Virus record (IMG/VR): IMGVR_UViG_3300013126_000002
Location: 1-63,185 of that record
From: a virus
Length of the DNA: 63,185 nucleotides
Reading direction: 5' to 3' (one strand)
The position numbers were made by a program, and so were the translations under genes. A model generated the notes under the pieces. The model did not search any database and was not told the DNA's origin. It saw only the letters and a list, made by a program, of their open reading frames with translations. This document shows positions 26,203 through 31,192 of this stretch, piece by piece. The number at the start of each line of letters is the position of its first letter. The first letter of the stretch is position 1.

Positions 26203-29200
26203 ATGACAACAGTTACAACGACTGCGATGCCCAAGGTGAGCCTCAATAGCCCGACCTTGGTGCAAGAGCTGGCCGCGCACCAGCAGGAAGGACGTGTAGC
26301 AGGTATGCACGTTCTGATCGACATCCCTGCCGAACTGGCTGAGCTGTTCCGCTATCGCGCAATGACCTCCAGTAGCCCGCTGTTCCACACGCTGGAGGCT
26401 GAGAAGCCCGAAGCGTTCAAGCAGTTGCGGCGCTATCTGTCCCTGATGCACTACACGGCATGGAACGTACGCACCAACGCCTACATGGTCAAGATCGGAC
26501 GTATCGGCGACAACACCCACATGGACGAGACTGTGCCATCGCTCATGGCGCATCCGGCAGGTCGTGTGCCTGAGTGGCAGGTCGATCATGGCGCAGGTCA
26601 GTCAACCCATATATCAATGATGACCGACTGGCAGACGCCAAGTGCCGCACCCACCCCCTCACCCGCTTCATCCACGGCCTTCGTCTCGTCAGCACCCGCC
26701 ACTCCGGCATGGGTCTACACGCCGCGCGTCAAGCGCGTGCTGCCTGCATGGATGAAGGGCACCATCGGTGATAACTTCACGGGCAACATCCGCGCCGTGG
26801 TGCAGGTGCGAGGGCGCAACGCACTGGCTCCCGTAATGATGGACACCCCCATCTCGGCACTCAACCTGACCACCAACATCATGGCTCCGGCCAGCCCCTC
26901 GTCAGGTGCATCGCAAGGCGTCATGCCCATCACCGAACACATGCTCAACTGGGCACGCGGGCGGCACGTAGCTACGGCAGCATATAGCCACATGCGCAAC
27001 GCCGAGATGCGTACCGAGGCCGTCAACATCATGACCAAGATGATGGAGGAGAACCCCGACCTGTTCCAGTCTGCTGACGGCACGCCTCGGTTCGTAAGCC
27101 CGTCTACGGCATACGCCGAGTCGCCGTGGTCAGGTACGTCATCGTTCTGGTCACATCATCCGGCCATGTCATCCGTCCGTATGGTCACGACAGGCGCGAC
27201 TACTACTATGTGCTTCGGGACACGTAGCGAACAGGAGCAGTTCATCAATAGCTATGGCGATACGACTGTAACCGAGTCCATCCCTCTGGGCGCGTACGCA
27301 GGCCTGCTCCCTTGTGTCGTAACCGCATGGCGGCGACTGTCAGCGCATACCTATGATTCCATATCCATATCCGAAGGTCGCCATTACGCCATCGGACGTA
27401 ACCTGTTGTGCGTGCCCCTGTCCCTGCCTACTTGGCGTAGCGCCTCCTCCCGCGTGGCGTTCGAAGGGGTGGAGCCGAACAATACGGCGATATGGGCGTG
27501 GTTCATGCGTGCCGAAGGCGCGTCAGTCAACGCTGGCGCTGGAGACGAGGCCTTGCCGTTGGCAGTCGTCACCCAAAACATCAATACCCGCACATGGTCT
27601 ATCTACTACCTGAAGGGCGTGGTTCACGACTGTCCGTTAACAGCCAGTCAACCTATCGATCCGTCCCTCATCGTGGAGAGCCCCACGTCAGCCATCCACG
27701 TGGAGGCCAAGAACGACCTGCTCGCGCTGGGCGTGTCCAAGGCAGCAGCAACCCGTGCCCTGCACCTGTCCTTCCGTATCGCAACAGGCGCGTTCGCCAA
27801 GGCGTTGGGTAACCAGTACGAGAACGGGCGCGTGTCAACGACTGAAGCCCTTAGCTCCATCGACAGCTTCTGTGCCTATGGTCTGGTCGGTAGCGAGGAT
27901 AACAGCGGCGTGCAGGTCTATACCCGCTCCATCAAATGGCTGTCGCAACTGTGCAGCAACATGAGCTTCGCCCTGTCATCCGTGCAACGCAACGCACTGG
28001 CAGGTCAGCACATCGGCAGCTATCTGGTAACCTCCTTCCCCACAGCATTGGGCGATGCGATGACCCATAGCCGTATGATCGCCAACACGCAGCAGTCCGC
28101 GCAGGCGCTCCACATGGCTACTGCCCTGTGGCGAGGCATCCATGTGCCTAACTGCAATACCCGCCGCGCAGTAGAGATGCTGGGAACCCTCAACACCTAC
28201 CTCGTCAACACCAGTACAGCACTGCACCGCGAAGTACGCACTACCCTGCGTACCAACGGCTCGCCTGTGACCGACCCCATCGCATATCGGTTCGTGTACT
28301 GCCCGCTGACGCAACGCATCTGGCTGCGACTCGTTCCCGATGGCGAGGCGGCTAACGATGGCCGCATGGTCAACCACCCGTCAGCATCCGAGGTACACGC
28401 TACCTTGGGCGTGCGCGATATGGTCATGCGCTGTTGCGTAGGCTGCGGCACCATCGTCACTATCGACTGCGATTTGGATGTCCCGATGTGGTGGTCACCC
28501 GCTACGCATGAGACAGAGGCTGGCGAGATTTGCGGCTTGTGTCGGCAGACCAACTACGACACTTGCGAGTGCTGCGGTCAAGCCTCACTGCGGACAAATA
28601 TGTTCCGCACCGCAACAGGTGGCCGCGCTTGCAATTCGTGCGCTCCGCACTATCGCCGTTGTACGTCATGCAACACGCTCACCCATGAGAACGAGCATGA
28701 GGCGTGTAACGGGATGTGCAGTCGCTGTCACGCTGAAGCACAACGGGAACTCCGCCAGCGCGAGTCCATGCCGTTCGGTGGCTATCATCAGACCCGCCGT
28801 AATGGATCGTTCTTTACCGAACGCAACGCCGACCCCAAGGATAAGTCCATCCCCTTGGGCGTGGAGCTGGAGGTGTGCTGCACGGGCGACCATCGTGACG
28901 ATGTGCTGCATGAACTCGGCAAGAAAGGCTACGGGCACTACTTCATCGCCGAACGCGATGGCTCCCTGTCCGATGAGCGTGGTGTCGAGTTCGTATCTGC
29001 ACCCATGACCCGTAGCATGTGGGAGTGCGTGCTGTCCGGCAAGCCTACACCCCACGGGCACTCGCTCAATGTGTGCGCCGATATGCTGGGGTATGGCGTC
29101 CGTGGCTACAACGTCAAGGGCAACTACGGCACGTATGGCATCCATATCAGCGTGGCACGGCATCGCCTCACCCCGTTGCAGGAAGCACGCATCCTTGCTT

Positions 29201-29893: not shown

Positions 29894-31192
29894 ATGTGTT
29901 TGATTATTGTTAAGCCCGTTGCTGCAACCTTCTCTGACGAATGGCTGCGCGACTTCTACTCTCGCAACGCTGATGGCTACGGCTTCATGTATGCCAAGGA
30001 CGGCGAGCTTATCGTTGACAAGGCAGTCCCCAAGACCGCTGACGAGTGGGTCACCGCGTTCCGTAAGCATGAGGAGTATGCCTGCGCTATCCACCTGCGT
30101 ATGCGTACCCACGGCGACATCGACCTTGCCAATGCCCACCCCTATCCGGTACTGACCAAAGAGGTCAATGGCCGCGATGTGTGGATGATGCACAACGGCA
30201 TCCTGTCGGGCGTAGCTTCCGACAATACCAAGATGTCCGATACGTGGCACTTCATCCGTGACGAGGTGCGCCCCATGCTTGAGCGTGACCCCGACCTGCT
30301 TACTGTCGAGCCGTTCCAGAAATGGCTGGGCAACCGCATCGGGTACAACAACAAGCTGGTGTTCGCCGATAACCTCGGCAACGTGGTCGTCATCAACAAG
30401 TCTGCGGGCAACGAGTTCAAGGGTTGCTGGCTGTCCAACACGTATGCTTGGTCGTACTCCATGCGTAATCAGGAGTCACCCGTTGCCAAGACCTACTTTC
30501 GTAACGGACGCTATATGTCCGAAGCGGAATGGGATGAGGAGTTCAGCGGTCACTACGGCAAGGTCAATGCTGGCGGCGGCTTCGTTGGCGGCAACAACGG
30601 CGCGTATCGTGGCTACAACGGCGGCGGCTCGTACTCTGGCAATAGCCATCGCTCTCTGGGGTCGTATACGCCTCCGGTGCCTCAGCCCGCACCCATCACG
30701 TCATCTGCCAAGCCCAGCCAGCCCGACCTGTATAACAAGGGCAAGGACTTCCAGACCTATGCGAACGGCGTCAATGTCGTACGCTACGATGCGGCGGCCA
30801 CGTCCCGTAAGGGCAAGAAAGGCAAGAAGAACGCCACCAAGAACCTGCCGGTAATCGATGGGCATGAGATGGTGTATATGTCTCGCAGCGAGTTCCTCGA
30901 CTACGCCACCTTCGCGCCGGGGCTGCTGTGGACGGCGTTTTCCGAGCTGTGCCTTGAGCTTGATCTGGAAACTGTCGTCACCTCCATCGATGATGACGAG
31001 GCCGACATGGAAGATTTGTCGAACGAGATCGAATCTGAAGCCGCCAAGATCGTAACGCAACGTGACGATGACGTGCCGCTGTTCGATCAGTCTCAGGCCG
31101 TCAAGACCGTGACTGCGCTCGATGACGAGTACGCCGAAGCCAACGCGCAGGTGCTGTCCGAACTGGGCTTCAAGGAGGGCTACCATGAGTAA
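29894..31192 (+). CDS. Class II glutamine amidotransferase-like protein
   Basis: 432 residues. Starts Met-Cys, so removal of Met exposes the catalytic Cys2 nucleophile of the Ntn-hydrolase fold. Then Asn-Ala-Asp-Gly-Tyr-Gly-Phe, an Arg-x-Arg-Thr-His-Gly-x-Ile-x-x-x-Asn-x-His-Pro block, and Met-His-Asn-Gly-Ile-Leu, all hallmark motifs of GAT-II enzymes that release ammonia from glutamine. Residues about 215-255 are a Gly/Asn/Tyr-rich linker, followed by Lys-rich and acidic segments of unknown role. Paired with the amidoligase, it could supply ammonia or hydrolyse gamma-glutamyl products. AAAGGAG precedes the ATG; it overlaps the next gene by 8 nt. Confidence 0.85.
   Translation: MCLIIVKPVAATFSDEWLRDFYSRNADGYGFMYAKDGELIVDKAVPKTADEWVTAFRKHEEYACAIHLRMRTHGDIDLANAHPYPVLTKEVNGRDVWMMHNGILSGVASDNTKMSDTWHFIRDEVRPMLERDPDLLTVEPFQKWLGNRIGYNNKLVFADNLGNVVVINKSAGNEFKGCWLSNTYAWSYSMRNQESPVAKTYFRNGRYMSEAEWDEEFSGHYGKVNAGGGFVGGNNGAYRGYNGGGSYSGNSHRSLGSYTPPVPQPAPITSSAKPSQPDLYNKGKDFQTYANGVNVVRYDAAATSRKGKKGKKNATKNLPVIDGHEMVYMSRSEFLDYATFAPGLLWTAFSELCLELDLETVVTSIDDDEADMEDLSNEIESEAAKIVTQRDDDVPLFDQSQAVKTVTALDDEYAEANAQVLSELGFKEGYHE

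Follow-up and report, generated by a model that had tools for sequence, protein, structure and literature searches.

An amidoligase with a zinc array and an exceptionally long N-terminus, encoded beside a class II glutamine amidotransferase in a viral genome

Genes for amidoligases and glutamine amidotransferases have been described together in several phages. For those of phiEco32, Iyer and colleagues (2009) predicted a role in modifying the cell wall and preventing superinfection (as cited in PMC10580990). A “peptidoglycan modification cassette” consists of two amidoligases, an ATP-grasp protein, a gamma-glutamyl cyclotransferase, and an amidotransferase (PMC5498523); a LUZ24-like phage carries such enzymes (PMC3890496), and OM43 phages have a two-gene amidoligase/amidotransferase pair (PMC10580990). 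No assay of any enzyme of the phage pair was found in the literature searched. Here we describe such a pair in a virus record of 63,185 bases, the whole of which was analyzed and is called the window below; the genes and motifs of the locus are on its plus strand. The observation is confirmed; the gene pair is of a known kind, in a version that is unusual, and what is new to specialists is only the long N-terminus of the ligase, a serine at its position 983 (Ser983), and the fast divergence of the ligase.

Identical direct repeats of 123 nt are present at both ends of the window (positions 1 to 123 and 63063 to 63185), which points to a genome that is complete or was assembled as a circle. The minus strand carries structural genes, with matches to terminase, head, and connector proteins, while the plus strand between 38 and 49 kb encodes DNA polymerase A, a PD-(D/E)XK nuclease, a SNF2-type helicase, a DUF927 primase/helicase, and Thy1. 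The amidoligase locus, on the plus strand, sits between these structural and replication genes, and from this position and strand we infer that it is an early operon, presumably expressed early in infection. The phiEco32/LUZ24/RIO-1-type cassettes likewise have an amidoligase and a class II amidotransferase in the early/replication half of the genome. An extended-TG sigma-70 promoter-like site at 25423 to 25451 (TTGACA-17-TACAAT) is, on the strength of its consensus matches (11 of 12), the likely operon promoter. It is followed by an open reading frame (ORF) of 179 aa (25556 to 26095), which has a Shine-Dalgarno sequence and only weak PHROG similarity, and then by ORFs of 1,217 aa (26203 to 29856), 432 aa (29894 to 31192), and 87 aa (31185 to 31448). 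A sequence-only reading of the locus had proposed that the last of these is coupled to the pair, and the ORF is real, its ATG overlapping the end of the 432-aa gene. It has no family match in Pfam or PHROG and no relative beside the other pairs in the fetched loci.

The 1,217-aa protein, whose ATG is preceded by a good Shine-Dalgarno sequence (AAGGAG), has no direct match in Pfam or NCBIfam. The sequence-only reading had called amidoligase motifs in its C-terminal part, which was a real catch, since Pfam alone misses the domain in the window sequence. All four blocks were located: GVELEV (residues 886 to 891; 28858 to 28875), DGSL (919 to 922; 28957 to 28968), EFVSAP (929 to 934; within GVEFVSAP at 28981 to 29004), and GIHI (979 to 982; within GIHIS at 29137 to 29151). 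They are followed by R1016 (29248 to 29250) and an ExR motif (29440 to 29448). In an alignment of 50 sequences (that of the window and 49 phage relatives), the amidoligase, or glutamine synthetase (GS)-like, domain spans residues 886 to 1160 (28858 to 29682), in keeping with the matches of a structural model. The window keeps 11 of the 11 invariant columns of this alignment (G886, E888, E890, D919, S921, E929, G979, H981, R1016, E1080, and R1082); the GxExE positions belonged to one of the search patterns, and the remaining invariant positions did not. Pfam Amidoligase_2 (PF12224) is matched by 43 of 46 aligned members, phrog_16683 is matched by all 46, and PHROGs named “amidoligase enzyme” are matched by most. 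The ligase of the window matches phrog_16683 at E = 9.9e-6, and tblastn aligned residues 774 to 1147 with MW202733, annotated as an amidoligase, at E = 6e-10. The MW202733 ligase passes the Amidoligase_2 cut-off (30.6 bits against 22). A five-sequence ligase alignment was too divergent for use as a search query.

An AlphaFold model of residues 740 to 1164 (pLDDT 79, pTM 0.68) gave 16 Foldseek matches in the PDB at E ≤ 0.001, every one of them to GS, PafA, Dop, or YbdK, with TM-scores that were low (about 0.3), partly since the zinc array was included in the model. Its best viral structure matches were phage amidoligases. These enzymes of the GS/GCS2 superfamily resemble the window ligase in its modeled fold and in the GxExE, GxH, and ExR blocks, whereas their identity to it is about 10% and the window has an added zinc array. 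A GCS2-like fold with ATP- and metal-binding Glu residues had been anticipated from the motifs, and both were recovered, the fold in the model and the metal Glu residues, with every invariant column, in the alignment. A profile of the relatives, a PHROG family, and the fold search agree in grouping the C-terminal part with amidoligases, and residues from about 774 to 1160 are assigned to a zinc-finger array and an amidoligase domain.

Six CxxC motifs, by motif count, make up a zinc-ribbon/LIM-like array at residues 745 to 842 (28435 to 28728), for which LIM and zinc-ribbon profile matches are weak. Its fusion to a ligase had been put forward as new, which the relatives do not support: at least two CxxC motifs precede the ligase motif in 54 of 60 distinct relatives, a sample that leans toward both features, as one search pattern contained CxxC and the other GVELEV. 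Relatives that were retrieved in other ways (L001, L002, L003, L005, L063 to L066, and L069) have the array too. Its presence suggests a macromolecular substrate.

The N-terminal region of about 744 residues ahead of the array (26203 to 28434) has no detectable homologue. Nothing was found by tblastn in phages at E ≤ 1 with residues 1 to about 744, no profile relative was found in phages, IMG/VR, or GTDB genomes, and whole-protein and peptide-pattern searches of IMG/VR and GTDB genomes returned no relative. The plus frame fits the codon usage in each 300-nt block of the ORF, the weakest being at aa 301 to 400; thus, the long N-terminus looks genuinely coding, and codon usage speaks against a frame artefact. 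Two other candidate explanations were rejected. No ORF similar to this region occurs in any relative locus, as a separate upstream gene would require, and homology with the N-termini of the relatives is not seen, the profile match being restricted to the zinc array from residue 755 onwards. An AlphaFold prediction of the N-terminus made without an alignment was uninformative (pLDDT 34). The window has 885 residues before GxExE, compared with a median of 243 and a maximum of 486 in the relatives, making its precatalytic region the longest among the relatives gathered. At about 740 residues, this N-terminus is exceptional; the sequence-only reading was right about its size and in calling it unknown. 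The phage relatives are 283 to 785 aa long, in contrast to the window, with its 885 premotif residues, an N-terminus without a relative, and HxS in place of HxH.

The next gene, 29894 to 31192, encodes a 432-aa protein with a catalytic domain at residues 1 to 190, and the prediction that it is a Cys2 class II glutamine amidotransferase (GAT-II) was borne out. Its score against Pfam GATase_4 is 22.2 bits (cut-off, 23), and when it is combined with six phage relatives into a profile, GlmS is matched at E = 2.9e-9. Its blocks HxR..TH, HNG, and SDT agree with the HTRWATHG and HNG of GlmS in the profile alignment, and Met1-Cys2, H67, R69, T72, H82, HNG at 100 to 102, and D116-T117 are invariant among the seven phage sequences. 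The nucleophile Cys2 (29897 to 29899) follows the initiator Met, and the residues of the glutamine pocket and oxyanion hole are present (R69, T72, H73, N101, G102, and D116). These comparisons confirm that the ORF encodes a predicted Cys2 GAT-II with glutamine-binding residues of the GlmS type. The seven-sequence alignment was too divergent for use as a search query. Cys2 and the HxR..TH, HNG, and D-T pocket blocks are shared with the glutaminase domains of GlmS and PurF; unlike these, the window protein stands alone without a synthetase domain and has a private C-terminal tail of about 240 aa. The tail (residues 195 to 432; 30476 to 31189) has no significant Pfam match. It carries a Gly/Asn/Tyr-rich stretch, and the closest relatives match only the first 190 or so residues. 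The closest IMG/VR relatives have 49 to 53% identity over the domain.

Amidoligase and GAT-II pairs recur in unrelated phages. A scan of IMG/VR with the ligase as the query gave 54 amidoligase loci, and, as the loci were fetched by the ligase, adjacency of the amidotransferase is an unbiased test. GAT-II adjoins the ligase in 52 of them (49 downstream and 3 upstream), usually 5 to 50 nt downstream on the same strand, and the remaining two ligase genes run into the contig end. Rarity of the pair is not supported, given these counts and its publication in PMC10580990, PMC5498523, and PMC3890496. Among catalogued phages, MW202733, PX050566, OP830907, and Marvin have the same gene order, and MW202733, vB_AciJM_313, MEP402, and Marvin are among the annotated phages that carry the pair. 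The zinc-array pairs of MW202733 of Manatee Spring, the Methylophilales phages MEP401/402, Marvin (gp105/gp106), and Acinetobacter phage vB_AciJM_313 resemble that of the window in gene order, ligase motifs, CxxC motifs before the ligase, and a Cys2 GAT-II. The near-obligate unit in the relatives is therefore the zinc array, the ligase, and the GAT-II.

A GAT-II without a synthetase domain needs a partner enzyme for its ammonia product, and the near-obligate adjacency of this lone GAT-II to a GS-like ligase, which would use ammonia or an amine, favors glutamine-dependent amidation. We thus prefer the reading that the pair amidates a carboxylate on a macromolecule, to which we give a probability of roughly 0.45. 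The GAT-II, with Cys2 freed as the nucleophile by removal of Met, would hydrolyze glutamine to ammonia. The amidoligase would bind ATP and divalent metals through the Glu residues of GxExE, Glu929, and the Glu of ExR and activate the carboxylate as an acyl phosphate, which the ammonia would then attack to give the amide. The substrate, which the zinc array and private N-terminus may hold or choose, would most plausibly come from the infected host, as a protein or a cell-wall precursor; the sequence-only reading had also named DNA-bound proteins as candidates. The three loci with GAT-II upstream of the ligase count against this model.

The related published prediction is that such genes modify peptidoglycan against superinfection, as in phiEco32-like phages (PMC10580990 and PMC5498523, with Iyer et al. 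2009 as their basis). For the window, we consider this unlikely. Gamma-glutamyl cyclotransferase (PF06094) is absent from the window and, in a search of 12 relatives, some of them fragments, from 11. A Pfam scan found no ATP-grasp protein or second amidoligase among the larger window proteins, small ORFs being partly covered, whereas the phiEco32/LUZ24/RIO-1-type cassette includes these along with the cyclotransferase; the window is thus grouped with the two-gene pairs. Stenotrophomonas phage StenR_269 and Rhizobium phage RHph_I3_11 have an additional ATP-grasp-type ligase gene. A CxxC array ahead of the ligase is also not obvious for an enzyme acting on wall precursors. That the unit of zinc array, ligase, and GAT-II occurs without the cyclotransferase in almost every relative searched for it narrows what a bench test would have to contain.

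PafA and Dop, which respectively add and remove a protein tag, are among the closest solved folds, which brings in a writer-and-eraser reading: the ligase may attach an amino acid or peptide to a protein or a wall stem peptide by an amide bond, and the GAT-II, as an NTN hydrolase, may remove or trim it. We judge this, too, to have a low probability, because the GAT-II keeps a pocket for free glutamine (R69, T72, N101, G102, and D116) that would be superfluous for an enzyme removing large amides, although the authors describing PSA-HP1 assign the phage amidotransferase a degrading role within the peptidoglycan cassette (PMC5498523).

Amidation by the pair must also be weighed against the peculiarities of the window ligase. 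At 29149 to 29151, Ser983 replaces the second His of the HxH motif, which is His in 48 of 49 relatives and Asn in 1. We take this HxH to be equivalent to the GMHxHxS block of glutamine synthetase, in which the first His holds a metal and the second contacts ATP. Given the loss of this near-invariant His, the window is filed only as a divergent member of Amidoligase_2. The substitution counts against the amidation model and may indicate that the ligase is weakened or altered.

The two genes have also diverged unequally. At a GAT-II identity of 45 to 50%, ligase identity between the window and other loci is 23 to 31%, whereas among the other loci in that range it averages 40% (minimum, 29%; 155 pairs). 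The window ligase domain is thus much more diverged than its partner, which amidation by an obligate channeled complex does not obviously predict. In the GAT-II tree, the window is placed beside L063 to L065 (support, 93/99). For the ligase, this grouping is rejected (AU test, P = 0.013), and an outlying place within a main clade of 30 rows is not rejected (P = 0.33). The mismatch in identity and the trees suggest, but do not establish, that the ligase partner was swapped; faster evolution and partner exchange are inseparable because the trees contain long branches.

Ser983, a ligase identity that does not exceed that of other locus pairs matched for GAT-II identity, and rejection of the grouping that the GAT-II tree supports could also mean that the window ligase no longer makes amides and has become a protein for binding or scaffolding, organized around its long N-terminus. 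This is improbable, since all the invariant positions, including the metal Glu residues and ExR, are kept and the outlying place in the main clade is not rejected in what is an unsure tree. Somewhat less doubtful, yet still quite unlikely, is a ligase that has been repurposed, the N-terminus and HxS directing it to a substrate or a reaction that differs from that of the phage relatives, while the conserved amidotransferase would still donate ammonia. With its extra 740-residue part and altered active site, the window version is an outlier for asking which part selects the substrate.

The locus also lies within an array of palindromes. A 20-nt palindrome, ACTGnnCGTTAACnnnCAGT, recurs in 13 near-copies between 22804 and 37987, only within the plus-strand gene region, far above the 0.08 matches expected by chance. 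They start at 22804, 23629, 23809, 24624, 24752, 25509, 26119, 27629, 29845, 31482, 32247, 33593, and 37968. The copy upstream of the 1,217-aa gene reads ACTGGCCGTTAACGACCAGT (26119 to 26138), a second lies inside that gene and reads DCPLTASQ (27629 to 27648), a third is at its stop codon, 49 nt before the GAT-II start (29845 to 29864), and a fourth lies past the 87-aa ORF (31482 to 31501). Five of the 13 copies are 38 to 49 nt upstream of a start codon. The set looks like an operator or 5′-untranslated-region regulatory array, and the exact pattern occurs elsewhere in IMG/VR in only five scattered places.

Other repeats were observed in the window. Three related promoter-like repeats (22741 to 22778, 23737 to 23774, and 25415 to 25452), in which CACTTGACA is followed after 17 nt by a TAnAAT/CATAAT box, precede the ORFs that start at 22849, 23858, and 25556. 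The adjacent ORFs at 22849 to 23565 (238 aa) and 23858 to 24508 (216 aa) resemble each other (EWQxLFxAK, ALIRRFARM, and NA(M/L)RKVF) and are likely a tandem duplication; each is followed by a terminator-like repeat, and neither has a family match. Degenerate repeats of about 60 nt are found at 57000 to 57810 within a minus-strand ORF of 456 aa that has no PHROG match. An 84-aa ORF at 35258 to 35512 consists mainly of Gly-Tyr/Asp/Asn/Ser repeats (GYGNGDGNGYGDG...).
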